A stretch of DNA of 64,000 bases from Nymphaea colorata (taxonomy: Eukaryota; Streptophyta; Magnoliopsida; Nymphaeales; Nymphaeaceae). The stretch spans positions 11,700,183 through 11,764,182 of the forward strand of contig NC_045148.1 in the NCBI RefSeq assembly GCF_008831285.2. Direction: 5' to 3'. Under the pieces are notes generated by a model that searched no databases, was not told the DNA's origin, and was given only the letters and a program-made list of their open reading frames with translations. Shown here one piece after another: positions 7,955 through 58,145 of the stretch; within the stretch, counting starts at the first letter, position 1, and every line of letters starts with the position of its first letter. Both the position numbers and the translations under genes were made by a program.

Positions 7955-8422
7955 TACACGATGTTCTGATATTTCTGGTGGCACCACACTTAATGATCTA
8001 GTGCTCATCAACTAAAATTTGAAGTTAAAACAAAGGTTTGACTGTTAATTTTTGTTCAAATATCGACATATTATAACATATTTATTATTGGAATTAGTTT
8101 TCTCTTTCAAATTTATAGACAAGCAATGTCAAGTAGAGGTGGAAGACAAAAGAATTACTTGGATCCAATTACACGAATCCCATTAAGATACACGATGTTC
8201 TGATATTTCTGGTGGCACCACACTTAATGATCTAGTGTTCATCAACTAAAATTTGAAGTTAAAACAAAGGTTTGACTGTTAATTTTTGTTCAAATATCGA
8301 CATATTATAACATATTTATTATTGGAATTAGTTTTCTCTTTCAAATTTATAGACAAGCATGTCAAGTAGAGGTGGAAGACAAAAGAATTACTTGGATCCA
8401 AATTACATGAATGCCATGAAAA
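7955..8422 (+). repeat. Tandem duplication, period 234 bp, two copies
   Basis: The segment starting TACACGATGTTCTGATATTT at 7955 recurs from 8189 almost base for base, including GGTGGCACCACACTTAATGA and ATAGACAAGCA-TGTCAAG. The few differences include one extra A in the first copy near 8134 and scattered substitutions near the ends (ACACGAATCCC versus ACATGAATGCC). Neither copy has a recognisable product. The near identity points to a recent duplication. Confidence 0.9.
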
Positions 8423-19000: not shown

Positions 19001-22000
19001 TTTGTTATTATCATTAGAAAAATGCATTTACAAACTGGCTGGCTAGCTCATGAGGTTGGTACACTTCACGAGTGCACCCACACCTCCAATTGCCTCCACA
19101 CGAGGTTTACCCATAACACTAACAGTCATAGCTAGCCGTCATACAATATGGGTACAATTACCCTCCAATCCATTCATTTGCATTATTGCCCACAGCAATA
19201 AATATGCAACAAAATACAACATTCATATCAGTTATCACATCAATCATATCTTTGAAAAACTTAGCCAAACCACAGAGAGTAGTCTCAATTTGCGATTGAC
19301 TCGTAGCTGTCCTATGCAGTTATCATTCTATGATGCTTTCTAATGCATAATTGGGGTCGAGGAGACACTCGACTAGATACCCCGTCTCATCTGTCCTAAA
19401 CAGATATCAATTCTAGCATGCACATGCAAATGCGTAACCTTTTCAAAACAACTACTAATAACCTTTCAAACAATTCATATCGTATATCAAAGCATGGACA
19501 ACCATACATATACTCATTCACAAGACAATCAATCAAGTCACATCACATATGTTATAAACCGACTGCCATTGGCCTTGCTTGATGGAAAATCACCATTTTT
19601 TCTATTACATCAAGATCAACCAAGTTATGAGGAATTGCGTGTTTTTGGATGTGTGTGCTATGTGCATGTTGATGTTTTCTTGCGAAACAAATTTCAAGGT
19701 CGTGCTATTTTGTGCAGATTTATTGGGTATGCAGATAACTACAAGGGTTATAGGTGTTACAACCCTAAAACTGGGCGTGTACATATTTCACGGCGTGTTG
19801 TTCTTGATGAAAGCAGGTTACAGGATCCCAAGGCTCCTCTTGTGACACTCAAGGACAAAAATGAGGTTTATGATACTTGGCTACATGCTGAAATCTTAAG
19901 ACAAGGAGCGGAAATGTTAACTGAGCACAAGGTGCAAGATGTTAATGAGCCCGAGACAGTTGTAAGTAGTTCCTTGAACAACACTACTTCCTTGGACAAC
20001 ATGCCTTCATCTTCTCATCCTAGTGGTCCACCTATGCATAATCGGTTCTCAGGCCTGGTGTATTCTAGGCGATCAGTTCCTACTGTAGCTCCACGCAAAT
20101 CACAACGCGTGCGACATCCTATTGATAGATGGGTGAGTTATAACAACTTTTCTTTGGATTTTCAGCTATTCATGACAGAAGTCAGCAAAAAGGTGGAACC
20201 AAAATCTTATCTTCATGCAAGTAAGGAAAAATGTTGGGTCGAAGCTATGAATGAGGAAATGGCAGTCTTGCATGAATGTCAGACTTGGCAGATTGTCCCT
20301 TGTCCAGCTGATAAGAATGTTGTGGGATCCAAATGGGTTTATAAACTGAAATATAAGCCAGATGGTAGCATTGATCGGCATAAAGCACAACTTGTCGCGC
20401 GTGGTTTCACTCAACAATATGGGGAAGATTATGATGAAACATTTAGTCCAATCATCAAGATGGGAACAGTCCGTGTGATTATTTCTCTTGCAGTCTCTTA
20501 TCGATGGACTCTTTATTAGTTAGACGTCAAAAATGTCTTTCTTCATGGAATTCTTAAGGAAGAGGTATACATGGACCAACCTCCCGGCTATACTACTCAT
20601 GATCCTCAAAAATGGGTTTGCAAATTACACAAGTCTTTATATGGGTTGAAGCAAGCTTCTAGATCATGGTTTGATCGTTTTTCTCATCATATACAACAAG
20701 TTGGTTTTCTCCGAAGCTCTCTCGATCATTCTTTGTTTATCTATCATACTGGAGAAGCTACCACCTGGTTACTTATCTATGTTGATGATATTGTTATAAC
20801 TGGGAATTCTCCTTCACATATATCTTATGTTAAAGGTATGTTGAAGCAAGAATTCAAGATTAAGGATCTGGGTGAACTACGATATTTTTTGGGTGTTGAA
20901 CTTGATAGGACAAATGAAAATTTAACTCTTACCCAACACAAGTATACTCTTGATGTTTTGGACAGGGCAGGTATGACTAACTGCAAACCCATCACTACCC
21001 CCAGTGTTCTGAATACTAAATTGATTGCATCTGATGGAACTGCTGCATATTCCAATCCTACATTCTATCGCAACATTGTTGGTATGTTACAATACCTTAC
21101 TTTTACTCCCCCAGACATAGTATATGCTGTAAATCAAATCTCTCAGTTTATGCATGCACCCACTGAAGGACATATGGATGCCGCTAAGCGGATCCTACGG
21201 TATCTCAAAGCTACTCTTGGCGATGGACTAGTCTACACGAAATGTCCAAATGTTTCTCTTGGACACAACATATATACATATACTGATGCAGACTGGGCAA
21301 ACGATCCCGATGACCGACGATCAGTTTCAGGTTTCTGTCTCTTCCTTGATTCTAATCTCATTTGTTGGAGCAGTAAAAAGCAGCGTGCTGTTGCACGATC
21401 TAGCACTGAGGCAGAGTATAGAGCAATGGCTGCAGGGACAGCTGAAGCCTCATGGTTACGTCATTTACTTGGAGAGCTCAATCTCCCTATTGCTCGATCA
21501 TCATTACTATGTGACAATCAGAGTGCAATAAAAATTGCTTTCAATCCCATTTTGCATAATCGTACCAAGCATATAGAGGTTGATCAACACTTCATTCGTC
21601 AAAAAGGTGAAGAAGCCGAGATCTTGCCTACTTATATATCCACACATGAGCAGATAGCTGATCTTTTTACCAAAGGTCTCACAGGGCAGCATTTTTGGGA
21701 TTTGAAGAACAAGTTGTGCATGATCAAATCTAATGCACAACTGTTAGCGTATGGGGATCGGGTCTATTCAGACCCGATCCATTCTCTTTATATCCACACG
21801 CCTAAGGTCACTAAGCGGTGGCTTCCTTGTAATATTTTATATTTTTATTTACAAATCTGTTGTAACCTAATTAGGGTTACGTTTTAATGAAAGATTAAGG
21901 AACGCAGGGGCTGTGCTCGGCCGACTGTTCTTCCTTTCCTCCATCGTCCTCTCTTTCACTCTTTTACTCTTTCTTCTCTATTCTCAATCTATCAGATTTT

Positions 22001-25000
22001 CAGACGGAGAGACATGTTTATGTGAAGATTCTTTTACTCACAAGCTTGTCTAGGTCAAATCGATTGCTTTCTTCATACATTGTCCCAGCCACACTTGTTT
22101 TTTTATCAAATCTCCTCAATTTAGGACATCTAGGTTTAGTATGTCTTTCTTCTTGACAATGGAAACATATAATCTTCTTGTTGCCATTGTTGTTATTCTC
22201 ATAGTTTCGATTAAAGTGAGGAGGCCTATAAGTTCTCATATGAGCGCCGGGTCTTGAGGTAGGAAGAACACTTTCACTCTTTTTTTTGAAAAAATTGAGT
22301 CTATTCTCTTTCATTTGAAGCTTCGCTATGGCTTCATTCATAGATGACACTTTATGTCTATGGAGCAAGGAAGTTTTGACTCCATCATATTCCGGCCTAA
22401 GACCAAGAATGAATTTATAAAAACTTTCCCTTTGGATTTGTTTTTCCCTTACTCCAATGTCTCTTGGATCATACCATTTGGGTTCAAATAGAGCAACTTT
22501 GTCTCATAATTGCTCCATTTCTCCAACGTATTTCTTAATGGACTTATCCCCTTGTTGAAGACTTGCAATCTTCATTTGAAGATTGCACATGTAAGCCACA
22601 TCCTTCATAGTGTGGGTTTCCTTGAGGAATTCTCATGCTTCATGAGCAAAATTATGTTTTGCTATGTGGCCCATGGTTGTAGTATCAACACAACCAATAA
22701 TCCAAGTAATAATCTTGTGATGTCCTATCTTCCAATCTTTCCATTTTCTCTCATATTCATTCATAACCTTGTCTTTTTCAACTCCATCTAGTTCTCGGGC
22801 TTTACCATCTATGGTTTTGGTTAGGACTAATTGAGGTTCACTTTTAGACCCATCAACAAGTCCCCATAAGCCTTTACTTCTAATGAAATGTTAGAGGCCA
22901 GCGAAATAACAGCACCTTCTTGTGTCAAATTACAGCCAACAATAAATCGAACACTTGGAGTGCTTCACAGCTCCAAAGGAAGAATAATAGCTGAATCTTC
23001 AAGATTGAAAGACAGCAAGACAAAGAGCCAAAACGAGGCTCTGATACCATGTAAATCAGGCCCGATCTTGAGAATGCAAATGCTTCAAGAGATACAGTCT
23101 TGAAGATCCCAACAACTTCAATAGGTAATACAAAGCCAAACCTCAAACTTGAGGAGAAGATACCAAATATATTAATCTCAAGAAAAGAATACACAAGAGA
23201 GGCCTAAAAGCCTTAACCAAAACAAGGGACAGCAGTCCTTTATTTATAGAGCAAAGAAAGGAGGAAAGAAGGGAGGAGTTGGCTGTTGGGCCAGCTCCAA
23301 CGGCTAGAAATCTAGCCGTTGGAAGCTGGTCCAACAGCTATTTCCCCTTTAACAATTAAAAAAAAAGGTAAAAACAGAAAAAGAGAAAAAGAAATAAAAA
23401 AGGGTACATAAAAATAAAATGAACTACATAAACACCTATGCATACATAGATATGTTTATATATACAAATCATACATGAAACTAAATGTATGACAGTACAT
23501 ATGAAATATATATATGTATACTTACATGATGTCTAGTCCTTAATCTAGTCCTGAATTTCTAACATGGGTATCTTGAGATCTTGAAAAATTCAAAGGTCCT
23601 CAACATCCCAACCTTTAAAATTTGAAAATTCACAACTCATGTCCAACTTTTGACATGATCTTTGAAATCATCCCTATCAAATAGATCCTGTTGATTTCAC
23701 AGGATTACGGTAATGTAGGCTATATCTCTACTTTCTATAATTAGGAGTGAAGGGACTCTGGAAGCACAGTGTCATCTCTCTTTCTCTCTCCCTTCCTGTA
23801 ATTTAAAAATAAATAACTCTTAACAATTTATATTTGCTGGTTAGATCCAATATTCACCAGATTCAATTCAATTGAGTCTCGGTTGATCTGATTTGCTTTT
23901 TGATTCACATCTGGACTTGAGTTTTTGAAACTGAATCCATATCTGGCAGGGTACGATCCGACTTTGTGTATAACTTGGTCAAATCCTTATTAGGTTTCAG
24001 ATTCAAATATGTTAGCTGTATACCAATGTGAGTCCAACTAGATTCAAGTTCATTTTCACTTAGTGGATCTGACTACACAGTTCTAGTTTTAGGTTGATAA
24101 TCAAATCCTACTGATCTTTTGACATCCTAATGGCAGCTCAGATTTAATAGTAAGTGCTTTTTATGTCCCTAGAAAGATGCCATTTAGCTAAATCTGCTGT
24201 TAACTAGTAGTTTCTAGGACTATATATATCCTTTTGATATTTCTTCATGTAAAAATGATTCTCAATATGAAAACAAGGAAACAGAGGGCTGATCTTTGAA
24301 GTTGTAATGATCAATATGAAAACAAGGAGACAAAGGGCTGATGTTTGGAGTTGTTTTTGATTAATCAAACTTCAGAAATGCACATGGGATATGGAATCAT
24401 GAGATTCAAGAAAAATTCATGAAAGTTTGATATATAGCATGAAATTTACAAAATCAGTTTTTTGACAGTCTTATATTTGTTGGCTCATATTTTCACCACT
24501 TTTTTTTGAATCTTATGGTTTTGGATCATATGGGTTTGTGTAGTTGGTTTCATAAAAATAGATTCAAGTCATCAGAAAATAGGGCTGGGCATCGAGCCCC
24601 AAAAAACCGGCCCGGGCCGGCCCGATAATGTACCGGGTCGGACCGACAGTGCCCGATTCAGCCCGATTTATTTTTTAAATATTGTTGTTATTTAATAATA
24701 ATATATATTTTTTATTATTAAAAATATATTTTATATCAATATATATATATATTTTTATTTATTTATTTATTTTAACTGGGCCGGGGCCAGGCTCGGATTC
24801 CGGGTATCAAGCCAGGCCTAGGCTTGATTTTCGGCCGGCCTGATGCTTAGGCCCACAAGAAAAGGCATGATGTCCATCATAGTAAATGGATACATGTATT
24901 CCGCCAACTATATTTATTGGTTGTCTGCTGGTTCAGTCATGTTTTGGTATTCTTTTTGAAATCCAACCATATGGGTAGCTAAACGTCCAAATTTGTATGC

Positions 25001-27962
25001 ATGGAAAATTTGCTGAAAATAGATGTGCTGATCAGGTTTTACGAGGGTCCAAATTAATCGTGTAATATTGAAATGGGGGGACGAGTGTCATGAAATCACA
25101 TCTAAGCATCTGATTGTAGCAATTTTTCATATAATTTGGAGTTTCTAATCTCATCTATGAGACCAGGTTCTTGAAAAGTGGCCGCAGCATGTGCTTGATG
25201 GCCATGCAATATGGATAGCCCCACGGTTGGTGTATGTGTGTGTGACTTGGATTTGGTTATCCATATTGCCCATTTATGACCTTTTTGGCATTCCAGAAGT
25301 CGTTTTTGATGAGTCCAACTCCACATGAACTTTAGATGTCCAAAGGTGTGGAGTTAAAGGAAAATTGTTAAAAATCTGATGTGTTGATTAGATTTCATAA
25401 AATGAGCTTATTTATTGTCCTTATCTGTTGATTGATATTTTGAGCACTGTTTCTTAATCATATAATTTGGATGTTTCAAGTTCATTTACGTGTTGGATTC
25501 ATCAAAATAACTTCAAATCACTAGAAATTTGACAAACTCTTGATATTTTCAGATGTCATAATCAAATTGGCACATATAAGACTTATTCATAACAGTTGAC
25601 CCCATGGCTGATGTGTTTATCTCTCTTGTTAGATCTTCAACAATAAACTTTCCATGAGGGAAGAGGTAGACTATGTAGTCAAGGTTGTTAGGATTGGCCG
25701 ATTGCATAATATACTATGCAATGTTATCTGTATCGTACGATACAGATGCGTATCGTACGATACGTATTGTCCGTATCAACAAAAACGATACGATACATGT
25801 TCTGTACACGATACGCGTGCGTATCGCACGCGTATCGCCCGTATCGTGCGATACAGACACCATATCGTACGATACGGACGATACACCCCTGTATCGTACG
25901 ATACGGGGTTAAAATGAAAAAGGAGCCCGACGGCCCCTTTTTTGTGTCTTTTTTTAAAACCTACGCTCCTCTCTCTCTCTCTTCTATTGTTTCTAAACAC
26001 TGCAAGAGACGTGGGAGGGAGAGATTTTCTCCGTTGGCATCAAGATTTGCCGGTGAAGCTTTATTTCTTGTTGTGGGGAGTCTCGGGACGGTGGGAAGCT
26101 TGGAGAAAGAGGGTTTTTTGGTTTCTAACACCAAGAAGGTAAGAAATAACTCATTTTTGCCGTTGAATCGCTCATTTCTCTTATTTCCTACATTTATTTG
26201 TATGTTTTTACTTGTTTTGTGAAGATATAATGTCGGATCCTGCATGGCAGTGGTGTACAAGGGTGAATCCCAAAGATAGGTTAAGAGTTAAGTGCAATTA
26301 TTGTAAGCAAATCATATCATGAGGGATCTCTCGCTTTAAAAACCATATAGCTGGTACACACAGCGATGTGGCTGCTTGCAATGGCTCCCAAGAGAACCCA
26401 TTGCCAGCGTATGTAAAGCACTAGTGTATGGAGCTTCTTAATGCAGTGAAAGCAAATAGGATTGAAAAGGAAATGCAATATGCAGAGGAAGGATATGGGG
26501 ACCCACATGAACAGGAAGAAAGTGAAGGTGAAGATGTTGAGTTTGAAGAAGAACATGTTGGTGTCAGTTTGGGAACAACTAAAGGGGAAGACATTATGCA
26601 TATAGGTGGTTCTTCAACTGCAACCAAAAAAAGAAGAGGTGCAAGTGCAAGTACAAGTTTACGAGGATGTGGTAGGAGTGGGGGCCGTACTGGTGTTGGT
26701 AGAGTACCTACTATCAAGTCGAGTAATATGTTTGGTTCGATCAAGAATTTTTTTCCCAATTATACTGTTGTTGGTGCTCAGCCTGAGATTCGTACAGCCA
26801 TGTGTTCAAAAGATATTGTTGAAGCAACAGATGAAACCATAGGAAGGTGGTTCTATGACGCATCCATTCCCTTCAATGCAGCAAACTCTTTTCATTTTCA
26901 GGCTATAGCAGATGTGATTGCTACTGTAGGCCGAGGGTATAAAATGCCCTCTTTTAATAAATTGCGAGGTAAAATTCTCAACAATGTAGTTAAAGATGTC
27001 AAGGCATATTGTGATGAACTGAAATTGAGCTGGAAAGCTACAGGATGCAGTGTAATGGCAGATGGGTGGACAGACATCAAGAACAGAACATTGGTAAACT
27101 TTCTTGTATATTGCCCGCTTGGTACTATGTTCTTAAAATCTGTTGATTTGTTTGATACTCCTAAGACTGCTGATGTTTTGTTTGAGGTTTTTGATAAAGT
27201 TATACAAGAAGTTGGGTCTCAAAATGTCGTGCAATTTATCACTGATAATGCAGCAAATTATAAAGCTGCAGGTGAAATGTTAGCAACACGATATAGGACA
27301 TTTTATTGGAGTCGATGTGCTGCTCACTGTGTAAATCTTATGCTTCAGGATCTTGGTGAAAGAGATGATATGAAGTTGACAGTTCAAAGATGCCAAAAAA
27401 TCATGAAGTTTATTTATAATCATGCTTATGTCTTGAATTTGATGAGGAAATTCACAAATGGGGCTTAATTGATTCGACCTGCACAAACACGGTTTGCTAC
27501 AAATGTTTTGACTGTGCAGGGTATAGTCAAGCAAAGAACTCCTCTCAGGCAGATGTTTTCAAGTGATGATTGGGCTGCATATCCACATGCCTATAAAAGA
27601 AAGGCTACGACAGTTGTGGATACCATCTTCGATGCTGACTTTTGGGAATCATGTGCGCACTTATTGAAGATTTGTGTACCTCTAGTGAAAGTCCTCAGAT
27701 TAGTTGATAGTGAAGATAGACCTTCTATTGGATATTTATACGAATCTATGGACAGAGCCAAGGAGGCCATTAGAGATAATATGAAGGGAAGAAAGAAGTT
27801 GTACATGCCTATATGGAAGATTATAGATGAAAGGTGGTCTGGACAACTTCATCGTCCACTTCATGCAGCAGCCTACTATCTAAATCCTGCTATTAGATAT
27901 CTTCCCACCGATGTGATAGAAATGTAGCACCAATATCTGTAACCCGAAAACAGCACTCACGC

Positions 27963-28018
<56 letters not shown>

Positions 28019-31000
28019 ACAAGAAGAAACTGAGGAGAAGAAGCCGTAGCCAAAATGGTTTGCACGGCCTCTATTTATAATCTCATTTTCAGAATTCTAA
28101 GAGTCTCCAATCGTAGAATCCTAGGAGATTTCACAAGCTCCAAGGACATTAATTACATCATAGAAACCTAAGAGACTTCACATATTACAAGGATATTAAC
28201 TACAACATAGAATCCTAGGAGACTTCCCATATAACAAGGATATTAACTATAACATAGAATCCTAGGAGACTCTTCACATGTTACAAGGACATTAAATATT
28301 TTAACACATTCTACAAGGAGGTGGAATCCTAAGAGACTCCTCTTCAACGTGCTGGTGAAGGATTTATATTTTAACACCCTCCCTCAAGTTGTGCATGGTT
28401 TTGCACCATGTACAACTTGCCTTTTAGAAACCAGAATCGTTCCTTTGTTAATCCTTTTGTAAATAAGTCTGCAACTTGTTCATCTGTACGAACATAAATA
28501 GGCTGAATTTCCTTGTCTTCCACCTTTTGTCTAACAAAGTGTTGATCAATCTCAATGTGCTTTGTTCGACCATGTTGTACGGGATTAAAGGCAATGTTAA
28601 TAGCGCTTTGATTATCGCACATTAACATTGATGTTTTAATCTTTTCTCCAATGTCTTCTAGCAAATGTCTAACCCATGTAACTTCAGCAGTACCTGCAGC
28701 CATGCATCTGTATTCAGCTTCAGTGCTGGATCTTGCTACTGCCTTTTGCTTTCGACAACTCCAAGACACAAGATTACGTCCAATGAAAATACAAAAACCA
28801 GAAATGGACTTTCTTTGATCGGGATCTCCAGCCCAATCTGCATCTGTGAATGTCATAAGTTGATGTCCAGTAATTATATTTTCACTCTTACCATAAACTA
28901 AGCCATCTCCTGCTGTCCCTTTAAGATATCTTAATATTCTTTTGACAGCATCCATGTGAGTATCTCTAGGTGCATGCATAAATTGGGATACTTGATTCAC
29001 AGCATATATAATATCTGGTCTAGTAAATGTAAGATATTGAAGTGCCCCAACAATACTTCGATATTGCGTAGGATCTTCATATAACTCCCCATCTTGAGCA
29101 CTTAGTCTTTGATTTAGAACACTAGGAGTTCCAACAGGCTTACAATCAGACATACCTGACTTTTTCAACAAATCCAACGTGTATTTCTGTTGTGTCAATG
29201 TGAGGCGATTATTGTGCCTATCAATCTCCACTCCAAGAAAGAATCGTAAATCACCAAGCTCTTTCATTTTGAAGTTTTGCATCATCAAAACTTTAGCTTC
29301 TTCTATGTGTTTTTCTGAATTGCCTGTGATAACAATATCATCAACATATATAAGAAGTAAAGTAAATATGTTTTCCTTTCGATAAATGAAAAGAGAGTGA
29401 TCTAGAGGACATCTCCGAAAACCACATTCTTGAATCTTGCAAGAGAAACTGTCAAACCACGAACGTGAGGCCTGTTTAAGTCCATAAATAGATTTTCTTA
29501 GTTTGCAAACCCATGCATGAGAGTCTCCTTTCGTGTATCCTGGAGGTTGTTCCATATATACTTCCTCCCTTAAATCACCATGAAGAAAAGCATTCTTCAC
29601 GTCCATTTGATGTAGTCTCCATCCATATTCAACTGCCAATGATATAATCACGCGAATTGTTCCCATTTTGATCACAGGGCTGAATGTCTCATCATAATCT
29701 TCTCCATATTGTTGTGTAAACCCTTTTGCTACTAACCTTGCTTTGTGTCTTTCTATGCTGCCGTCAGGTTTGTATTTAATTTTGTATACCCATTTGGAGC
29801 CCACTACGTTCTTTTCGTGTGGCCTCGGAACGATCTCCCATGTTCCACATTCATGCAAGGCATCCATTTCTTCTTTCATAGCATTTCTCCAATGATGTGA
29901 TTTTGATGCTTGATCAAATGAAGTAGGTTCTTCCTCCTTGCCAATTTTTGCCATGAATAACTGAAAATCAAGTGATAAAGAATCATAGCTAACCCACCTG
30001 TGAATGGGATGACGAATGCGTTGGGATCTTCTAAGGTGGGACATGTTGTCTTCTTCACTGTGAGCATCTCTGTCCCTTAGTCGTCGACTGTAGATAAGAC
30101 CCGAATACTGATGTGCATCGTTGCTCTGTTCATTATTGTTTTCGTGATGACTTGATGACTGTGTTGGATCTTCTTGATTTTCACTTTGAGCCATATCCGA
30201 CGGTTGTATTGCTCTCTCTGAATCTTCACTTTGAGGCACATCATTTTCTATAACAGGATCTGCATTGAATAACTGTGTACTGGTCCAGGGATCATAAGAT
30301 TCAATGGTCATAGGCATTTCATTTGTATTATCAAAACTATGTTCATCAAAAATGACATTTCTTGAAGTTTTGATACGTTTAGTTGTTGGATCATAGCATC
30401 GAAAACCTTTATATTCATCAGCATATCCAACGAATCTACATTGAATAGCTTTGTCTTGAAACTTGTTCCTCAAGGCAGCATCAACGTGAACATAGCATAC
30501 ACAACCAAAAACCTTCAAGTTCTTGTAATCAGGTTGTTTGCCTAAGAGTGTAAAATATGGCGATTTAGACATCAAGAGTGTCATAGGCAAACAATTTATT
30601 ATGTATACAGCAGTATGGAAGGCAGTCCACAAGGAAATGGGCACATTAGTATCATGCATCATGCTCATGGCGCTTTCAACTATATGTCGATGTTTCCGCT
30701 CAACTACACCATTTTGTTGTGGTGTGTAAGGGCAGGAAATTTGTCTAGTTATCCCTTTTTCACGTAGAAATTCAATAAAATCAAGCGAGGAATATTCTCC
30801 CCCTCCATCACATTGAAAATGCACCACATTGGATGAAAATTTAGTTTGAATCATGGCATAGAAGTTTCGAAATATGTGAGGTACTTCTGATTTGTGTTTC
30901 ATGAAGTAAATCCAGGTGAAACGTGAGTAAGAGTCAATGAATAAGACATAATATCTTGACCCAGACATGGAATCAATAGGGGCTGGCCCCCATACATCAG

Positions 31001-32953
31001 AAAAAATAGTTTCAAAAGGTTTGGAAGCCCTTTGATTTATATTATGGAAAGGTAAAACATGACTCTTACAAAGTCCACAACTTGAACATTTTTTGACACT
31101 TGAAGTAAGAGGTAAACTTGATCTTGGAATGAGACTATCTGTGACAAGTTTTTCAATGAAATGTCGACCACAGTGTCCTAGCCGACTATGCCACAAATCA
31201 GACTCCAAAAATTGGTTAGGGCCCCTTACTTTTGATTGAAAATGACAAGAACTTGGCACTGATGACGCATTATGAGAAAGAGAAAATGTCTTCAATCCTA
31301 TATCAAAAGTGGATGAATCCTTGGGTAGACATTCCTTGAGGACGTACATATTCCCTTGACGCTCCCCTCTAGCGAACATTTTCTTCGTTTGGAGGTCCTT
31401 GACATAGACAGAAGAAGGTGTGAATTCAACAGAAGAGCTTGTATCATCAATGAGTTTAGAAATGGATATGATGTTCTTTTTGATATTGGGAGCAAGAACA
31501 ACATTAGACAGTGATAGAGACGAGGATGACAATGGAATATGTGCATTTCCAATATGTGTAATAGGATGAGATTTTCCATCACCTGTTATAATGCAACTTC
31601 TACCGTAATGAGGGGATAAGTTAGTCAATTTACCTGCATTTCCTGTCACATGGGTAGCTGCACCTGAATCCAAGAACCATTCTCCCTGCTCATTTTGCTT
31701 TATAGTCATCTTTGAGAATGCGGCCATCAATAGCTGTTGCATATCTTCAGCGGTGGATTTAGAACTTTGTCCTCCTTGTTTATAATCATGTCTTACCCCT
31801 TTGTTTTTATTTTGAGGATTAAACCAACATTGTGCCTTCATGTGTCCTTTCTTGTTGCACTGAAAACAAATTGGTATTTTTCTTGAAGTATCCAAAGGAG
31901 ACATACCTTGGTTATGTGGTGTTGGTAGAATGCCACGACCACCATGGTTGGAGTTCCCATGGCTCTTACCAAACTTTACATTCATAGCCAACACATTTTG
32001 GGAGTTCCCTTGATCAGTCCTTTCAATGACTCTTTTCATATTCATTTCATGTTGGAGAAGTTTACCTTGTAGTTCGTTGAAGGAAGGCAGAACAGGAAGG
32101 ACCTCAAGCGCTGTAATAAAAGCATGATAATCATGCCCAAGTCCATTCAAGGTTTGCTGCACCTTTTCCTTATCAGAAATGTTATTCCCTGAGGCAGCAA
32201 GTTGGTCTGCGACGGCTTTAATACGCCCCAAATAATCCATGATAGACGTTGAACCTTTGCTCAAATTCTGAAATTCTTTCTTTAAGTACATAATTCGAGC
32301 TTCTGATATTTGGGAAAATGTATTAGCAAGGGTTTCCCATAATTCTTCTGCAGTACAATCATCAGAAACTGAAAGCAACACTTGTTGAGATAAAGTGGAC
32401 AAAATATACGCAACCAGACTTTGATCACGTCTCATCCACATAGCATGTTCAGGATTGTTGTCTTCATGAACAGCAATAACTTCTCCTGCCTCATTTTTTA
32501 TTTCCTGTAAGACAGATATTGGTGGAGCCTTTGTTGAACCATCGAGATGTCCAAAGAGGCCTTGACTTCTTATGAAAGGCATGATTTGCCTTTTCCAGAT
32601 AAGATAATTCTCATGGTTGAGTTTTTCGGTAATAAGGTGAGGAAGAAAACTTGAGGACATGCCAGAATGCGAAAGGTTTTCCATGACAGCAGAAAGGAAT
32701 GGTATATAGGTAGAAGATGAGAGGGAAAGAAGACACGATATAACAAGATGTGTCCTTGGTAAGCAAGAAGAAAAAGGAACAAGAATTGCGCAAGAGAAAA
32801 GTAAATTCAAGATAGAGACAAGATGAGAAAAGAGTTCTAACCAGATCAGACCTGTTTGGGCATTTCGTTTGGTAGAGATAACGTAACCTGGCGCTCTGAT
32901 ACCATGATAGAAATGTAGCACCAATATCTGTAACCCGAAAACAGCACTCACGC

Positions 32954-32995
<42 letters not shown>

Positions 32996-35737
32996 ACAAG
33001 AAGAAACTGAGGAGAAGAAGCCGTAGCCAAAATGGTTTGCACGGCCTCTATTTATAATCTCATTTTCAGAATTCTAAGAGTCTCCAATCGTAGAATCCTA
33101 GGAGATTTCACAAGCTCCAAGGACATTAATTACATCATAGAAACCTAAGAGACTTCACATATTACAAGGATATTAACTACAACATAGAATCCTAGGAGAC
33201 TTCCCATATAACAAGGATATTAACTATAACATAGAATCCTAGGAGACTCTTCACATGTTACAAGGACATTAAATATTTTAACACATTCTACAAGGAGGTG
33301 GAATCCTAAGAGACTCCTCTTCAACGTGCTGGTGAAGGATTTATATTTTAACACGATGCAGGTCAACTATGCGTCCAGGTATTAGAAAAAGAGACTTTAT
33401 ACTTTTTGGTTTATTTTATTTGTTGTTTAGCTTCTACCTTCTCATATATTTATTCTATCTCATTTTTACTTTCCATCTATTATTAGATCTGTGGTGGGAA
33501 AGGTTTGAGCCTGATTGCCCAAAATTAAGGAAGCTTGCAATTAGAATCCTCAGCCAAACATGTAGTGCAACTGGATGTGAAAGAAATTGGAGTGTATTTC
33601 AGCACATCCACAGTAAGAAGAGGAATAGGTTGGAACATAAAAGGTTGAATGACCTTGTTTACGTCCGTTATAATATGAAGTTGAGACAAATGTAAACATT
33701 TGTTATGCAAAATAGCAAATTCTAATATATATTTTAATTTCTAACAATTTGTTAATTTGTTCTCTTTTTAGACAATTAGAAACAACATCTACGAGGAAGC
33801 ATCACACTCAATATGATTCTATCAACATTGACCATTTTGATATATTAGATTCTTGGGTTGAAGAAGAACAATCTGTAATACTTGATAACCTTGAGGACGA
33901 TCTTGATTTTTTGAACCTTGAAGGAGTAGCAGAGATTATTGAAGAAAGAGAGGCTCGAGAGCAATGGAATGTTGGTGACATTCCATTTCCAATAGAGGGG
34001 ATAGAAGCACTTAATGAAGACAATGAAGATGATCATGAAGATGATGATGGAAATGACGATTGACGAGGATTGTTGTTGAAACTTGAATGAATCATGATTG
34101 ATAACTATATGTTTTCACTTTTGAACTTATGAATTGTGATGTAATCGAATTCTCTTCAGCTACTTATTATGTTATTTTGAATGTCTGATTTCTTATTTTG
34201 GAATGTGTTGTTCATACTTCATAATCATATACATGAATGATGAATGTTCCTTTAAATACATTTTTCTTGATTTTTTCTGATTTTTACTTGTTTCTTCGGA
34301 TTTTTTTGGAATTTTTATGATTTTTTTGGATTTTTTTATGATTTTTTAATATTTTTTAAAAATTTAAAATTTAATTTTACGATACGTTACGATACGGCGT
34401 ATAGGTCGGCCCGACCGATACGCGATACACTACGCCAGTGATAACATTGATACTATGTATGAGAGAGAGAAAGAGTGTGTGGGGCTTTTCTGCCAGAAAA
34501 ACTTCTTCACATCCATGTTTTTACAAATTAATACCAGAATATAACATATGGATGCAAGTCGCAGTGTACCTGTCCAAGAACCTAGGGATTCAAAAGGTTT
34601 AGCAGTCAATTTATTTATGTAATTTCCTGATGCAAAGATCAATTTCACATGGTTGGTGGAAATATGCTTCTCAACTTGAGTTGGGTGCTTACGGCAGGAA
34701 CTCTGAGTTGGGCACTTTAAGCTCTCATTGGAACTCACACATGGATGGGGCATACAAACACACTTGCACATACACACACAGACATATTCTCTTTTTTCAC
34801 AAATCCTCTCACCTTGATAAATAAATATAATATGGTTGCTCTTGCTTGAAATCTCAGGCTTTATTTTTTCAATTTTATTTTGCTCTTTTAGGCTTCTGAT
34901 CTGTTAATTTCTTAATTTAGATTACTCTTTGGAACTGAAGATGCTCATTACAGTCTATGTTTCTACCTTTCCCCTCTACGGTTTCTGATCTTCTAAAGAA
35001 TTTTAGTAGATAACAGGGTATATTACTATATATTGATGTTATATGGTCTTCTTGGTATGAAATTTTGTTTTTGAGAAGAGATTTCTTTTTTGTTGTTATT
35101 GCATGAAGCAACCTCTCTTGATTTACTCTGTTTGCAACTGAATGATTGATTGTTCCAGGCATACTTGAGTGCAATCGTCGTTTATCTTTATGCACATGAC
35201 TTCAAGCAGGCTCAGAATTGCTATAATGACTGTGCACAGTAAGTTCCACGATGTGATTATTCTTCTTTATCTTCTCAGTGCTTTCAGGTTGAATGTCGTT
35301 TTCTCTATGTTTATTGCGTCATATATGCTTCCTCCAGTGAAATGGCTCCTTGACCTTGAACTTTTGGTTGAGCTTTGCAGAATTGATGCTTTTATCAGCA
35401 GTGACCAAAACCGCTGTGCTGAAAAATTGCTTTCAGCTTATGGAGAAGCTGATCAAGAAGAAATCAGGCGCATTGCTCTATCAAGCACTATCTCTAATCT
35501 TGATCATGTGGTAACTTCCGTTTATTCTACTTTGTAAAACTACCAGTATGAACCATAGAGATGTCTAGAGAACAAGAAATATGAAGCCCTCTTGTACCTC
35601 AGGCTGTGGAATGAGAAACATGAAGATGCATTGTGCCCTTTTTTGTTCATTTGATGGGAAAAAATCTAGAGCCAGGAAATGAAGGCTTTGGTAGAACCTG
35701 TCAGACGGGTGTCAGTTGTGGGTACAGTGAGTATATA

Positions 35738-35791
<54 letters not shown>

Positions 35792-36371
35792 TGTCTACAA
35801 ATAACAAATTAACTGCTAACAAGGTAGATTCTTCATTGATTGAATGAAAATGGAGGTAAATTGTCAGCAATTGTTTTCAACAGACCATGTGACTTAATAT
35901 ACAACCATTAGTCATTTCTAGTGAAGGTGCCAAGAAACCCAAAATGGGAAATGGAAACCAATTTTGCCACCTGTTTGGCTATATCAATCAATAATGGTGC
36001 ACATTCTTACATTATGCACAGAAGTTTATTGTCAACACTGTAGCACGTCATATGGATATTGGCAGGTTCATAGGCAGCCCTAGCCTTGTAGACAGGGAGA
36101 GGCATAGCAGAGTTAACTTCTAACAAATGCTCATGCTAGCTTCTACAAGATACTCCTGCTGAAGGATTGATCCTACAAAATGGACTGCTGGTGGTTTTGG
36201 TCATTCTTTTTTCTCTTTTTATCCCTTCAATAGCTTTCAGCTCGTTTACTTTCTAAGTTCTGGTGATTGCAGATCATTAGGCTTGCCAGGAAACTGCCAA
36301 CAGGTGATTTAAACTCTTTAAACATGGACTCAAAAGAAGATGAGACTCTTGACGAGAATGACCTCACATAG
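9620..36371 (+). CDS. Gamma-soluble NSF attachment protein (gamma-SNAP), nine exons
   Basis: Gamma-SNAP is a cytosolic adaptor of helical (TPR-like) repeats that works with the ATPase NSF in SNARE recycling. Exons: 9620-9681, 11241-11308, 11437-11521, 11622-11780, 11877-12014, 16295-16373, 35159-35238, 35381-35510, 36273-36371. Phases agree at every junction and sum to 900 nt (299 aa), close to known plant gamma-SNAPs. Recognised segments in order: TRLSLTRWKADWRNA, EKAKEAFEKAARGQEML, DVAKHMEAAAALAKE, DFYRRASECYTECGRSQPAS, DDGKQQMAFDLYRSA, FLLRWGLAADKC, AYLSAIVVYLYAHDF, SSDQNRCAEKLLSAY, STISNLDHV and the acidic tail ending ENDLT. The start ATG follows an AG-rich leader and gives the family N-terminus. 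No stops or frameshifts were found in the exons. Intron 6 is 18.8 kb and full of transposons. A possible poly(A) signal AATAAA lies at 36792. Exon limits are inferred by family comparison and splice rules. Confidence 0.93.
12114..12247 (+). repeat. Imperfect direct repeat in gamma-SNAP intron 5, period ~87 bp
   Basis: CACCTGCATGGACACTTTGC (12114) and CACCTGCATGGACAAAGTGC (12201) are each followed by AAAATGGGGCACAACA. Only about 45 bases of each copy are clearly alike. Confidence 0.7.
12300..13960 (-). mobile_element. Decayed copia pol remnant in gamma-SNAP intron 5
   Basis: Read on the minus strand in shifting frames, this stretch shows copia integrase pieces: a QRYC...YNKK / ELAERKYRRIMEN-like segment near 12880-12940 (normally TPQQNGVAERKNRHI) and GYKCYDIKNYKLYVSRNVIF near 12620-12690 (normally YKCYDPxTxKxYVSRDVVF). 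Many stops and frameshifts show that it is long dead. It is probably the same element as the gag remnant at 14480-15060, since gag lies upstream on the minus strand at the expected side. LTRs were not identified. Confidence 0.75.
13970..14450. mobile_element. GC-rich MITE-like insert between two copia fragments
   Basis: A GC-rich island with GTACCCGTGTCAACACGG and GTACCGGAACCTGTAC motifs interrupts the minus-strand copia remnant between its pol and gag parts. It contains a short (AT)n/(TG)n run (about 14321-14344). The ends show only weak inverted similarity, so the element type is uncertain. Confidence 0.35.
14480..15060 (-). mobile_element. Decayed copia gag remnant in gamma-SNAP intron 5
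   Basis: Minus-strand translation gives fragments such as FLGELSNLW and VDPLDIAHQNQQIEEDNFL that line up with the better preserved gag at 22043-22900 (GEMEQL / PRDIGVREKQIQRESFY). The order also matches: the segment near 15000 corresponds to the one near 22840-22880. This is a non-coding remnant with stops and frameshifts. Confidence 0.65.
15083..15274. repeat. Possible short MITE containing an (AC)14 microsatellite
   Basis: The ends ACATGAGCGCGGTG and CCACCCTGCACTCATGT form an imperfect inverted repeat. An (AC)n run occupies 15169-15196. No target duplication is evident, so this call is tentative. Confidence 0.35.
15281..15334 (+). repeat. 27-bp unit repeated twice
   Basis: The unit starting GAATATATATTCCATGGTAG occurs at 15281 and 15308 with no visible difference. 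Confidence 0.9.
16008..16037. repeat. (TA)n microsatellite in gamma-SNAP intron 5
   Basis: An uninterrupted TA run lies about 260 bases before exon 6. Confidence 0.9.
17337..17723. mobile_element. hAT-like MITE, copy 1, with 8-bp target duplication
   Basis: This 387-bp insert is flanked by GTTTGCAA at 17329-17336 and 17724-17731. It starts CAGTGTCACAAA and its other end reads TTTGTGACTGTA, giving short inverted ends with GTGTCAC/GTGAC cores. The interior is T-rich and non-coding. A second copy with the same interior order (AACTAAAAAAACGTG, then TACTTATCTTTTGATG, then TTTAAAACT) lies at 53074-53454. The common sequence flanking copy 1 is actually TAGTTTGCAA, so the exact duplication length could be 8 to 10. 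Confidence 0.8.
17755..18046 (+). pseudogene. Ty3/gypsy gag fragment (retrotransposon gag domain)
   Basis: Translation in two frames gives LDLPMFTSKIDAESFFDWT, then HDVPEHRWVPLASAILWG, then IRTWVVMQQLMQTKFVP. This follows the plant gypsy gag pattern (F-x-G-K-x-D-P-x-x-F-x-D-W ... V-x-L-V-A-x-x-L-x-G-x-A-x-x-W-W ... W-x-x-M-K-x-x-L-x-x-x-F-x-P). It carries a frameshift near 17870 and stops near 17950. The fragment ends abruptly where the next repeat begins. Confidence 0.7.
18047..19549. repeat. Unclassified insert, possibly gypsy LTR/UTR sequence
   Basis: The segment starts TGTCACACCCCGACC, a start common in plant gypsy LTRs, directly after the gypsy gag fragment. It ends where copia integrase sequence begins. 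It is richer in GC (18640-19000) than its surroundings and has no coding family. No second copy, LTR end or target duplication could be found in the window, so the nature is inferred only from the start motif and position. Confidence 0.35.
19552..21751 (+). pseudogene. Copia A polyprotein remnant (integrase C-end, RT, RNase H)
   Basis: The frame is open apart from TAG at 20517-20519, which replaces the Gln codon expected in LYQLDVKNAFLHG (a CAG to TAG change). Motifs: DRWVSYNNFSLDFQLFM linker, GSKWVYKLKYKPDGSIDRHK, LDVKNVFLHG, QPPGY, YGLKQASRSW, YVDDIVITGN (RT catalytic), YTDADWANDPDDRRS, ARSSTEAEYRAMA, LLCDNQSAIKIAFNP, TKHIEVDQHFIRQ and DLFTKGL. The frame then reads into the LTR and stops at 21885-21887, because the usual PPT and terminal codons before the LTR appear to be deleted. 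It is not functional without the lost gag, protease and most of integrase. Confidence 0.88.
21742..22042 (+). repeat. 3' LTR of copia A
   Basis: Begins TGTTAGCGTATGGGG and parallels the 5' LTR of element G (59876-60171) throughout: the GGATCGGGTCT...AGACCCGATCC palindrome (21755-21780), GTTGTAACCTAATTAGG, CGGCCGAC and GAAGATTC near the end. The exact right end (CTCACA, 22042) is uncertain by a few bases. Confidence 0.75.
22043..23564 (-). mobile_element. Copia element B, 5' part only (5' LTR, PBS, gag)
   Basis: On the minus strand this is LTR (23564 down to 23052), primer-binding site (23051 to 23040, complement TGGTATCAGAGC), and then gag to the junction with copia A. Gag shows GEMEQL, PRDIGVREKQIQRESFYKF, the end segment LLHRHKVSSMNEAIAKLQ and a CCHC knuckle CFHCQEERHTKPRC (CX2CX4HX4C, about 22130-22180). 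In-frame stops and frameshifts break the gag before 22368. Protease, integrase and RT are missing, because the element is cut off at the copia A LTR. Confidence 0.85.
23052..23564 (-). repeat. 5' LTR of copia B
   Basis: On the minus strand it starts TGTTAGAAATTCAGG and ends CTGATTTACA next to the primer-binding site. A stem-forming segment (CCAACGGCTAGAAATCTAGCCGTTGG in + orientation, about 23298-23323) is its clearest internal landmark. It is related to the solo LTR at 51973-52368. Confidence 0.8.
24263..24360 (+). repeat. 49-bp imperfect tandem repeat, two copies
   Basis: CAATATGAAAACAAGGAAAC (24263) and CAATATGAAAACAAGGAGAC (24312) head two similar units that both continue with AGGGCTGAT or the near variant. 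Confidence 0.8.
24581..24855. mobile_element. GC-ended MITE in gamma-SNAP intron 6
   Basis: The ends are an imperfect inverted repeat: AGGGCTGGGCATCGAGCC at the left and the reverse complement of TGGGCCTAAGCATCAGGCC at the right, both followed inward by GGCCGG-rich sequence. The middle is AT-rich. This layout is usual for short plant hAT MITEs. The target duplication is not clear. Confidence 0.6.
25729..25914. repeat. Subterminal palindromic repeats of hAT 1 (GTATCGTACGATAC family)
   Basis: The 14-bp perfect palindrome GTATCGTACGATAC occurs three times in exact form (about 25731, 25749, 25890). Variants such as GTATCGTGCGATAC and ATATCGTACGATAC fill most of the interval. The opposite end has related GATACGTTACGATAC and CGATACGCGATAC units (34379-34430). 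Clustered subterminal repeats of this kind are known transposase-binding regions in hAT elements. The binding role here is inferred. Confidence 0.85.
27914..28376 (-). repeat. 3' LTR of copia C (463 bp)
   Basis: Ends TGATAGAAATG...TTTTAACA in + orientation. It contains a (GA)n tract (27966-28012) and four to five copies of a ~47-bp unit built on AGAATCCTAGGAGACTTC (28110-28345). The polyprotein stop codon lies within its first bases (minus strand). Confidence 0.93.
28371..32684 (-). CDS. Copia C gag-pol polyprotein, 1437 aa
   Basis: One uninterrupted frame encodes all copia functions in the usual order. Gag: NHENYLIWKRQIMPFI, SLVAYILSTLSQQVL, and zinc knuckle CFQCNKKGHMKAQC (CX2CX4HX4C). Protease: WFLDSGAATHVTG. 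Integrase: zinc-binding HSRLGH...CSSCGLC, catalytic residues in FSDVWGP, FQCDGGGEY and QQNGVVERKHRH. Reverse transcriptase: GSKWVYKIKYKPDGSIERHK, QMDVKNAFLHG, YVDDIVITGN. RNase H: FTDADWAGDPDQRKS, STEAEYRCMA, MCDNQSAINIAFNP, DLFTKGL. The ATG at 32684 is chosen because it gives the gag N-terminus MENLSHSGMSS. The frame is open further upstream, but that part lies in the LTR and leader. The length is typical of plant copia polyproteins. Whether it is transcribed cannot be seen. Confidence 0.95.
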   Translation of the reverse strand: MENLSHSGMSSSFLPHLITEKLNHENYLIWKRQIMPFIRSQGLFGHLDGSTKAPPISVLQEIKNEAGEVIAVHEDNNPEHAMWMRRDQSLVAYILSTLSQQVLLSVSDDCTAEELWETLANTFSQISEARIMYLKKEFQNLSKGSTSIMDYLGRIKAVADQLAASGNNISDKEKVQQTLNGLGHDYHAFITALEVLPVLPSFNELQGKLLQHEMNMKRVIERTDQGNSQNVLAMNVKFGKSHGNSNHGGRGILPTPHNQGMSPLDTSRKIPICFQCNKKGHMKAQCWFNPQNKNKGVRHDYKQGGQSSKSTAEDMQQLLMAAFSKMTIKQNEQGEWFLDSGAATHVTGNAGKLTNLSPHYGRSCIITGDGKSHPITHIGNAHIPLSSSSLSLSNVVLAPNIKKNIISISKLIDDTSSSVEFTPSSVYVKDLQTKKMFARGERQGNMYVLKECLPKDSSTFDIGLKTFSLSHNASSVPSSCHFQSKVRGPNQFLESDLWHSRLGHCGRHFIEKLVTDSLIPRSSLPLTSSVKKCSSCGLCKSHVLPFHNINQRASKPFETIFSDVWGPAPIDSMSGSRYYVLFIDSYSRFTWIYFMKHKSEVPHIFRNFYAMIQTKFSSNVVHFQCDGGGEYSSLDFIEFLREKGITRQISCPYTPQQNGVVERKHRHIVESAMSMMHDTNVPISLWTAFHTAVYIINCLPMTLLMSKSPYFTLLGKQPDYKNLKVFGCVCYVHVDAALRNKFQDKAIQCRFVGYADEYKGFRCYDPTTKRIKTSRNVIFDEHSFDNTNEMPMTIESYDPWTSTQLFNADPVIENDVPQSEDSERAIQPSDMAQSENQEDPTQSSSHHENNNEQSNDAHQYSGLIYSRRLRDRDAHSEEDNMSHLRRSQRIRHPIHRWVSYDSLSLDFQLFMAKIGKEEEPTSFDQASKSHHWRNAMKEEMDALHECGTWEIVPRPHEKNVVGSKWVYKIKYKPDGSIERHKARLVAKGFTQQYGEDYDETFSPVIKMGTIRVIISLAVEYGWRLHQMDVKNAFLHGDLREEVYMEQPPGYTKGDSHAWVCKLRKSIYGLKQASRSWFDSFSCKIQECGFRRCPLDHSLFIYRKENIFTLLLIYVDDIVITGNSEKHIEEAKVLMMQNFKMKELGDLRFFLGVEIDRHNNRLTLTQQKYTLDLLKKSGMSDCKPVGTPSVLNQRLSAQDGELYEDPTQYRSIVGALQYLTFTRPDIIYAVNQVSQFMHAPRDTHMDAVKRILRYLKGTAGDGLVYGKSENIITGHQLMTFTDADWAGDPDQRKSISGFCIFIGRNLVSWSCRKQKAVARSSTEAEYRCMAAGTAEVTWVRHLLEDIGEKIKTSMLMCDNQSAINIAFNPVQHGRTKHIEIDQHFVRQKVEDKEIQPIYVRTDEQVADLFTKGLTKERFWFLKGKLYMVQNHAQLEGGC
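32893..32904 (-). other. Primer-binding site of copia C (initiator tRNA-Met)
   Basis: The + strand reads GCTCTGATACCA, so the element strand reads TGGTATCAGAGC, complementary to the 3' end of plant initiator tRNA-Met. It directly adjoins the 5' LTR. Confidence 0.95.
32905..33353 (-). repeat. 5' LTR of copia C (449 bp)
   Basis: Matches the other LTR base for base by eye except for a shorter (GA)n run (32957-32988). Confidence 0.93.
34458..35158 (+). other. End of gamma-SNAP intron 6
   Basis: Ordinary intron sequence between the hAT 1 target duplication and the acceptor TGTTCCAG at 35151-35158. A short GA run lies at 34460-34475. No other element recognised. Confidence 0.7.
35739..35791. repeat. 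Compound (TG)n(TA)n microsatellite in gamma-SNAP intron 8
   Basis: About 14 TG units run directly into about 12 TA units. Confidence 0.95.
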
Positions 36372-41134: not shown

Positions 41135-44100
41135 CTATAAGTTCTTTCCTTATAGAGCATTTGAATCCATTCGTTAATTTGGAATGAAACTGGAGCAATG
41201 GGTTATTTACTGTTCGTTGCAATTTGTTTTCCGTAGTGCTTCCAACAGTTTCAGTTTTTCTAGGAATTTGACTGTGTTATTGGGTGATTGGTGGTTTAGT
41301 ATGTCTATTGTTGATGTAGCTATCAAAACAATTTTTGTGATCATCTTTCCTTTCTGGAATTGTCAATATTGCTCGCTTGATGTTGAGGTTTCTCTAGCAT
41401 TTCATAGTCAATTTGTTTGTCTGAGCATTTTTCTTTTATTTATTTTGTTTTTTTTAAATAAACGCTGCAAAATCAACTTGTCCCTTTGGACCCTTTCTGT
41501 TGTTAGTAAACGGATTTTACTTTTGATGCACCAATGCCTTTCGAAGGCCATTGTTCTAGATGGTCATTTGCAGTTGGTTTTGCTGTTTGCAGTGTTGGAA
41601 TGGAAGGGGACGGGCTGGCGAAGAAGGAGATGGTGTTGGGACCGCAACGATCATGCTTTTAGGGGATACATGTACAAGGGGTTGTAGGTTCTGCGCTGTG
41701 AAAACTAGCAGGAATCCTTCACCAGCAGATCCTATGGAACCAGAGAACACTGCAAGAGCAATAGCTAGTTGGGGGTGAGTTTGTTGGTTGATTAAGCAGA
41801 TGAAAATCTTTTCGTTTTCCTGATACTTCGATTATAAGTATCTTTGAAATAGATTAATACCACTAAATGATATTTTAATATGTTAACATCGAAGTTTGTG
41901 AATTTTGCATCACTGATGTCTTTGGATAGGTTGACACAAGTATCACATCTGAGGGAATTGTGGCTTCATTTATGCTATTTCCTATCTGTATATGTGCTTT
42001 CATGGATAGAGGTTGACAAGTATCACAACATGAAGAGGTTGCAGGTTGAGATAATAACTTCAATGCAAGTTGTTGGAGATTTGGTGTCGATGCTCCAAAA
42101 CATAACCACCAATTAACAGGATCTTCTTCATCTCTTCCCATTGCAGCTTGTATTGAATCATTTCTTCCACCAGAGAAGGTCGCAAACTCATTATTTATTA
42201 TCTTCAACCGATGAGGATCAAAATATAGTCTTCCCAAACATATCTCCCTATTTTTTGATATTTCTGGATTTCGATTAGGAGAAACACGACCAGTACCTCC
42301 TGCCAACCATGTTTGTCCATAATATTTGGGATTTAAGGAGTGTGCCATACAATGCAAAGGGTTATTGCTTCTGTTCCATCTTCTTACTAAAATTGTATGC
42401 ACATGATCGAAAAACTCAGAATCATCAAGTGCAACATTCTTCTTCTCAAGTCTAAAAATGATGTTTTGAATTTTTTCAATCATGTTATCCCACATATCAT
42501 AAACTTTATGAAGCATGGGTCCTTCTTTATCTACTTCTCTCAGCATCTGCCAAATAGGCTTTGTAAACTGCAAAAAATATGTAACTTTATCCCACCATTC
42601 ATCATCTAAAATGCATTTTTTAATTTCTTGAGCCTTCACAATGTCATCATTGTGATAAAACTCCCAATCATTGTCAGTCACCATAAGTGTTAATGCATCT
42701 TTCACCTGCTTTATTCTTTTTATCATTACAATAATGGATGCAAAACGAGTCTCTGGTACCTTCAACAATTTCAAATCATAATGCCTATTAAATATAGCAA
42801 GAGCATTGTTGTAGTTTACAACAAAATTTTTGATGTTTTTGACATCATGCTCAAGCTCCTCAATGCATGAACACAAGAAACCGGCATTTGGATCATCTTT
42901 TGATGGGTTGTAAATAGTTTTAACTTTTAAGTGCTAGATTTATACTGTGTGCCACACAAGGAGTCAAAAATATGTGACTATACTTGGGATCACTTGCCAA
43001 ATTCATTCATGCTCGTTGGCAAACTGGAGCATTATTAGTAATAATTTGCACAACATTATCTTCACCCACTTCTTTGATGACTTCTATAAATAGCCCTTTT
43101 AAATACTCAACATCTTTATACTCCCTAGATGCATCAACACATTTCAAGAAGATTGGTCCATCAAGCGAATAAGCAATAAAATTTATCAGTGGCTGCCTTT
43201 GTATATCAGTCCACCCGTCAGAAACAATGGATACTCCATATTGTATCAATGAAATTTTCTTCTTCTTTAATAATTTTTCAATGTTTGCCTTCTCTTCCGC
43301 AAGAATTACTGAACTCGGGGGTACATAACCACTCAAACTGCAATTAGCCAAACCTGTAACAATATCTTTCCAATAAGGACTTCTGGCTACATTAAAAGGA
43401 AGTGAACTTGCAAAAAAGAACCTTCCGATCCTTCTATCCATCTCTGCCCTTCCCATATTATTGAATGCTTGTGTTAATGTTTTTCTTTTCTTTGAAACAT
43501 CTTCACCTTCTTCAATAGCATAAAGAGGAACATACACACTTGACTTGGATGAAGATTTCTTCGTCTCAGCTGCATCCTGTTCTTTTTTAAATATCTTAAT
43601 CTCCTCGTTGGTTACTTTATGGGATGGTCTAATTCCAACGCCTGAGATATGCAACAAATGTGCCTTGCAACATGTATAAGAGCCCGTGAACATTATATCA
43701 CAAAATTTGCAAGAAAACATTACATTCCCACCACCACCTGGTCCTTTTCCTAGTTTCTTCATGTTAAAATATGTTGCTGTGGGAACTGGGTCCATTCCTG
43801 GACCCGGTTCTATGGGGCGCGGGTACCGAGGCGGGCTCGGTACCCTAGTCGGCTTCTCCTCTCTCCCTCTTTATATTGTCACTTGTGTTTAGTGTTGAAT
43901 TAAGTGAATATAATTTTCTCTCTCCTAGGGTTGCGGTGAGCACCTAGGTCAGAGCCTCCCCGTGGTTTTTCACCTCTTTCTGAGGTTTTCCACGTAGATT
44001 GTGTGTTCGTTCACTCTCTCTCTCTTTGTGGTTCGTGTTTCTACATGGTATCAGAGCCTGCGGAGTTGGAGAAGCGTTTTTTTCGAGAATCGTCAAGTTT

Positions 44101-56976: not shown

Positions 56977-58145
56977 ATGGCTAAAAATCCCAAAACTGAT
57001 TTCTCTCATGATGTTAAAAGTGGAGGAAATCCATTCTCTTATGGTTCTATTGTAAAGTTAGATGGATCTAACTATGAGATTTGGTCTCATGTGTTTATGA
57101 TATATGTGATTGGACATCAGAAGGAGCATGTTATAGAAGAAAATGAGCCTCTTGAAAAAAATTGAAAAATATGGTTCATGGAAGGGAGATAATAATCTTG
57201 TCATGTTGTGGATCATGAATAGTGTGCAACCACATATTGTATCAACTATTGCATACTATACCTCTGCCAAACAAATGTGGGATGTCTTGACACAAACTTA
57301 CTCAAATGACAAGAATGTTAGCAGGATATTGTAGGTGGAGGAGGAATTACTTAATTTGCAATGAAATCTCCCCCGACCTCCTCCTGAGCCTCGACCTATG
57401 TCTCTCCCCTTGAATGAACTGCGTCCACAACCTCCTGAGGTTACCAAGGCAGAGGCATGGATATCACTAGAGGGCTGAGAAAGGGTCACAACAAGACGAC
57501 TGAGTCTGTTGTAGGCTTCAGCTAGGTTAGGGATGTCTGCTCCTGTCAACATCTGAGCCTTTGCTACTGCATATTCAGGGGAGAGCCCCTGTAAAAACTT
57601 CGCAACCATAGACTGTTTAGCATGAGTCTTATGACATGTTGGACATGGGGGACATAATGCTTTAACTCGTTCATAGATGGACTTGAGGGAAGCAAAGTAC
57701 TGAGCAAGATATTGCAGGTGGAGGAACAATTACTTAATTTGCAACAGGGTGACCAAAGTCTTGCTTAGTACTTTGCTTCTCAGTACTTTGCTTCCCTCAA
57801 GTCCATCTATGAACGAGTTAAAGCATTACGTACCCCATGTCCAACATGTCATAAGACTCATGGTGAACAGTTTATGGTTGCGAAGTTTCTAGAGGGGCTC
57901 TTCACTGAATATGCAGTAGCAAATGCTCAGATGTTGACAAGAGCAGAAATCTCGGACTTAGCTGAAGCTTACAACAGACTCAGTCGTCTTGCTGTGACCC
58001 TTTCTCAACCCTCTAGTGATATCCATGCCTCTGCCTTGGTAACCTCAAGAGGTCGTGGACGTAGTTCATTCAAGGGGAGAAGCATAGGTCGAGGCTCAGG
58101 AGGAGGTTGGGGGAGATTTAAGTGCACCTATTGTGGGAAGTAGAT
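56977..58145 (+). pseudogene. Copia F gag, frameshifted and rearranged
   Basis: ATG at 56977 gives MAKNPKTDFSHDVKSGGNPF and LDGSNYEIWSHVFMIY. A frame change near 57155 leads to SWKGDNNLVMLWIMNSVQP and QMWDVLTQTYS. Then the reading is broken by an inverted copy of the downstream gag segment. The direct copy resumes near 57870: MVAKFLEGLFTEYAVANAQM, LAEAYNRLSRLAVTLSQPSS, a Gly/Arg-rich linker, and the first half of a zinc knuckle (CTYCGK) before a stop. Confidence 0.82.
57364..58119. repeat. Inverted duplication of a ~345-bp gag segment
   Basis: The left arm (57364-57706) is the reverse complement of the right arm (57775-58119), separated by about 68 bases. Both ends match: AAATCTCCCCC at 57364 against GGGGGAGATTT at 58109, and AAGTACTGAG at 57695 against CTCAGTACTT near 57779. 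The left arm is bounded by direct repeats containing GGTGGAGGA and ATTACTTAATTTGCAA (57334 and 57718 areas). The arms have several substitutions. Confidence 0.9.

Follow-up and report, generated by a model that had tools for sequence, protein, structure and literature searches.

In the part of PMC6911290 that we used, nested plant LTR retrotransposons are described as young elements lying within older ones and mostly bounded by 5-bp target duplications, and the locus described here is alike in both respects. The same source quotes, for Tos17 of rice, the target palindrome ANGTT-TSD-AACNT. For retroviruses, the portion of PMC2857682 on which we draw reports deletions as well as duplications after uncoordinated integration. 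We analysed a 64-kb window of the Nymphaea colorata genome (all coordinates below refer to this whole stretch) in which a copia element, here called copia C, lies inside a hAT element, which in turn lies inside an intron of a gamma-SNAP gene. The preliminary description had presented this nest as complete. We found that the nest is real and largely ordinary, being made of known kinds of elements, but that it is not lossless: after setting aside copia C and one copy of its duplication, the host hAT is not continuous and is 145 bp short of its relatives.

The gamma-SNAP exons were located by tblastn, using an Arabidopsis gamma-SNAP as query. Those 5' of the long intron are on the plus strand at 11242-11307, 11436-11522, about 11614-12030 (with a small intron inside) and 16293-16373, the edges being approximate except at the long intron itself. 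Those 3' of it, also on the plus strand, are at 35159-35239, 35379-35513 and 36273-36368, as further delimited by exon edges and splice bases. The intron between the two groups, which holds the nest, spans 16374-35158 on the plus strand (18,785 bp, GT...AG). The joined exon peptides contain a SNAP domain (Pfam PF14938, 9.7e-21) and gave gamma-snap 2ifu as the sole PDB match at 0.001 (1.1e-25), and the earlier identification of the intron as belonging to gamma-SNAP was thereby borne out. The window also contains two related broken copia elements (19494-21887 and 60614-63770, with 300-bp stretches 85-90% identical), one of which is within the same intron as the nest, and a direct duplication at 7947-8359 (179 bp, 99% identity, 234 bp from start to start).

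The copia-interrupted hAT element occupies 25719-34449 on the plus strand. Its 10-bp inverted ends match at 10 of 10 bp: CAATGTTATC at 25719 is mirrored by its reverse complement, the last base of which is 34449, and either one is found only once in the window. The 8-bp target duplication ATACTATG is exact between 25711-25718 and 34450-34457, precisely where it had been placed before; the same 8-mer is found four times on the plus strand of the window, both hAT flanks included. Two transposase pieces were recognised on the plus strand, one matching Pfam DUF659 (26428-27465, 4.6e-57) and a C-terminal one matching Dimer_Tnp_hAT PF05699 (33489-33692, 2.3e-14). We then searched the genome assembly (407,766,735 bases, 783 contigs) for relatives. 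With a query that included 118 bases outside the hAT, base 25719 being query base 119, 34 of the 39 other scored places start at query base 114-119 and the remaining five at query base 130-150; such shared starts make the hAT end more than a product of chance. A query internal to the hAT gave 373 candidates; 40 were scored, and apart from the window itself the other 39 are at 97-98%. Twenty relatives were fetched whole, and among the 14 with both ends readable the 8-bp flanks are identical in 13 and differ by one mismatch in one (the best-matching end pair was used; this made a difference for L039 and L040 alone, each of which had two candidate ends). Six further loci yielded one more such flank pair (L060). 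When a paralogous empty site was sought by genome search, the left flank proved to be single copy, its one candidate being itself. As seen from its ends, flanks and relatives, the hAT was put into the long gamma-SNAP intron by cut-and-paste. The window copy is interrupted by stops at 26320, 26422 and 27466, and the same stop is present in 0 (one relative being gapped there), 0 and 1 of 20 relatives, respectively. Its nearest relatives are L046, L048 and L056, at a difference of 4.1-4.3%. Elsewhere in the family, ten other copies are within 0.6% of L050, which indicates that this hAT subfamily was recently active.

Copia C extends over 27914-33353 (5,440 bp, minus strand) within the hAT and is flanked by CGATG at 27909-27913 and 33354-33358, in agreement with what had been reported. 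The 3' LTR (27914-28376, 463 bp) and the 5' LTR (32905-33353, 449 bp), both on the minus strand, are of the form TG...CA and are identical at 449 of 449 aligned bases, plus one 14-bp (GA)n length difference. Each LTR has a 47-bp unit repeated 3.8 times in addition to the (GA)n run. A polypurine tract, GAGGGAGGG, adjoins the 3' LTR, and the primer-binding-like TGGTATCAGAGC adjoins the 5' LTR, where we take it to match the initiator Met tRNA as primer-binding site. In the ORF listing there is a single open frame of 1542 aa (28371-32999, minus strand), a length that counts the read-in from the 5' LTR; parts of this frame match gag_2, rve and RVT_2. By Pfam, integrase is upstream of reverse transcriptase (rve 30420-31019, RVT_2 29121-29819, minus strand), and the piece at 28401-28799, looked at for RNase H, had no Pfam match at 0.01. 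The LTR query gave 495 candidates in the genome, and of the 40 scored two are the LTRs of the window, while the other 38 match over at least 345 bp, at 100% in 37 cases and at 99% in one; the internal query gave 464 candidates, and all 40 scored were at 99-100%. The copia C family is young.

A second nest-like arrangement is found at 41875-49018, where another element, copia D (43762-49018), with LTRs identical at 280 of 284 aligned bases plus a 3-bp gap and with CTTCA flanking it at either end, lies next to the 5' portion of a second hAT-like gene (DUF659, 43007-43759, minus strand, 1.1e-28). An inverted repeat at 57357-58126, with arms of 348 bp that are 92% complementary and 74 bp apart, is possibly a foldback element.

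The order of events given in the preliminary description, gene, then hAT, then copia, stands on the nesting and on both duplications, since copia nested in the hAT must have come after it. The nest had also been offered as useful for dating by LTR divergence; in this it provides bounds only. With 0 substitutions in 449 bp, the 95% upper limit for the age of copia C is about 0.26 My if the rate is 1.3e-8 per site per year, and about 1.1 My if it is 3e-9. For the terminal branch of the window hAT copy, 0.025, these two rates, which are uncalibrated for Nymphaea colorata, set maxima of about 1.9 My and 8.3 My.

The loss itself became apparent from the hAT relatives. All 39 other scored matches of the internal hAT query stop at query base 529, immediately left of CGATG; beyond this base the relatives have other sequence and reach CGATGCAGG later. 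At the junction CCCAC/CGATG (27904-27913), between CCCAC, which ends at 27908, and CGATG, 26 of 29 relatives (L010-L038) have 145 bp and one has 142 bp, the right part being absent in the other two. The missing stretch thus ends exactly at the left duplication of copia C. The three nearest relatives keep the 145 bp (L017, L019 and L028, the loci of L046, L048 and L056), and this is by far the largest loss of the window copy, the next being 21 columns. By eye and against the relatives, no microhomology was found at the junction, and a search for the 145 bp relocated within the window gave no match longer than 18 bp. The description of the nest as complete consequently fails, and so does the accompanying argument that removal of copia brings LPTD and the downstream codons back into one frame: 145 is not a multiple of 3, and the transposase frame stays broken when copia is taken out. 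As read by eye, the D of LPTD arises from the junction; in the relatives the reading is LPT-FKKDREVEYG, and CGATGCAGG is reached in a different frame.

Two other origins of the junction were considered and rejected. A chimera of two hAT copies around copia is contradicted by L048, which, compared in 200-bp steps, is 94-98% identical to the window hAT almost throughout on either side and falls lower only near the 5' end; the left/right contrast seen against other relatives is due to uneven conservation. Had two copia insertions in one hAT recombined, CGATG would not be present at both edges. An error of assembly at the copia-hAT junction is conceivable to the extent that the many near-identical copies of copia C can mislead assemblers; we regard it as very improbable, given that the CGATG copies match across 5.4 kb, that the outer hAT duplications match as well and that the window contains no N.

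We are then left with the time at which the 145 bp disappeared. The reading we prefer, to which we give a probability of roughly one half, is that they were lost in repair during the integration of copia C, as a single event at this site. The exact abutment of loss and duplication would, by a hand calculation, have a chance of about 2 in 3,286 if an earlier deletion had occurred independently, which makes such a deletion improbable. This weighs against the possibility that the hAT was already 145 bp short, for example through faulty repair after hAT activity, and that copia chose the adjoining five bases by chance. For an earlier loss it can be said that the hAT is the older of the two elements, as judged by its terminal branch against 0 of 449 LTR differences, and had more time, and that internal deletions are frequent in hAT elements. 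The genome nevertheless offers no other copy of the exact junction: its 15-mer occurs only at the window locus, so a hAT subfamily without the 145 bp was not found by this search. With one mismatch allowed, the 15-mer is found at 27 places, which were left uninspected, as compared to 16 for a reversed-pattern control allowing the same mismatch.

The target-site preference of copia C also bears on the state of the hAT at integration. Fifty pairs of presumed outer flanks were fetched, of which 38 were readable and 12 were set aside since only one of the two ends could be located; at least one insertion (C5 near 8.387 Mb) was taken twice, the first time unreadable. An exact 5-bp duplication is present at 37 of the 38 readable sites. 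The exception, L073/L074, belongs to two copia C elements in opposite orientation at C3 about 7.376-7.398 Mb (L073, L074, L121, L122), which have a common right flank TTATG..., one with matching duplications and the other without; this suggests an inverted duplication, recombination or an assembly fault. In the 74 flanks of the 37 sites, a set that excludes the window's own site, G is at -3 in 40 and T at -2 in 47. Scored by this preference at three positions, a choice made after the pattern had been seen, the shortened flank CCCAC obtains -0.22 bits against 2.1 bits for the undeleted flank, which is favoured by 2.3 bits (bootstrap 1.06-4.03). The same comparison gives 1.5 bits with six positions (bootstrap -0.29 to 3.43) and 1.9 bits with twelve (-0.9 to 4.8), both intervals including zero. 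The site preference thus mildly supports integration into an undeleted hAT, and it fits an earlier loss less well. Taking these results together, we hold the earlier loss to be possible and rather unlikely.

The site preference is also compatible with a later loss, in which a clean integration of copia was followed by a separate deletion of 145 bp that stopped by chance at the edge of the left duplication. Such a course agrees with the clean duplications at the readable sites of the family. It calls, however, for a coincidence of endpoints, and LTRs with 0 of 449 differences leave little time for a subsequent deletion; we consider it improbable.

The hAT decayed in the gamma-SNAP intron after its insertion, and a copia of the young family later integrated into it at CGATG with a 5-bp duplication. 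Under the preferred reading of loss during integration, the copia integrase would have cut an undeleted hAT, and the single-strand gap on the left of the intermediate would have turned into a break. Trimming of the host side of that break, followed by end joining to seal it, would leave the duplication in place with the neighbouring 145 bp gone. More generally, the chances seem to us about even that copia integration can cost the host some 100-200 bp on one side of the insertion and still yield a perfect 5-bp duplication, by breakage at the repair gap and end joining.

All four other nested copia C insertions that could be judged are clean, so the 145-bp loss is not a habit of the family and looks like a single accident. 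L081 and L153 were judged clean against the window's relatives. In L157 (C7 about 10.305 Mb), copia C is in the transposase frame of a different hAT family, with a gap-free alignment and apparently no loss, and in L101 it lies cleanly inside an open frame that is presumably a reverse transcriptase. Three nested controls with partial matches only (L069, L099 and L149) are left out of this count; the left flank of L069 matches the window's copia D over 188 bp, a match that ends 38 bp before the insertion, with no resumption on the right.

If copia integration can trim its host in this way, such losses would escape annotation that relies on duplications only, and seemingly clean nests would be unreliable for reconstructing ancestral sequence. 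Matching duplications are no proof of a lossless insertion, and it was the multicopy host element that gave the missing comparison here. The frequency with which integration shortens its target could be measured with copia C, given its many identical LTR stretches, and with the hAT family, for which there are hundreds of candidates. Searches of literature listings on flanking deletions and on Nymphaea or nested elements found no account of this locus.

As compared to known systems, the window hAT resembles the hAT superfamily of plants in its inverted ends, 8-bp duplication, DUF659 and hAT dimerisation domain, and differs in that this copy bears stops and is 145 bp short. Copia C is like Ty1/copia elements in having LTRs, a 5-bp duplication and gag followed by integrase upstream of reverse transcriptase, whereas its target lacks 145 bp on one flank. 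The nests treated in the part of PMC6911290 that we used are of LTR elements in LTR elements, and the host here is a hAT. Relative to the Tos17 palindrome quoted there, copia C likewise favours GT at -3/-2 to either side of the 5-bp duplication, but its preference is weaker and includes no A at -5 or T at -1 of note. Finally, the retroviral cases in the portion of PMC2857682 referred to above, which speak for a loss during integration, are uncoordinated joinings, whereas at this locus the loss lies beside an intact duplication.
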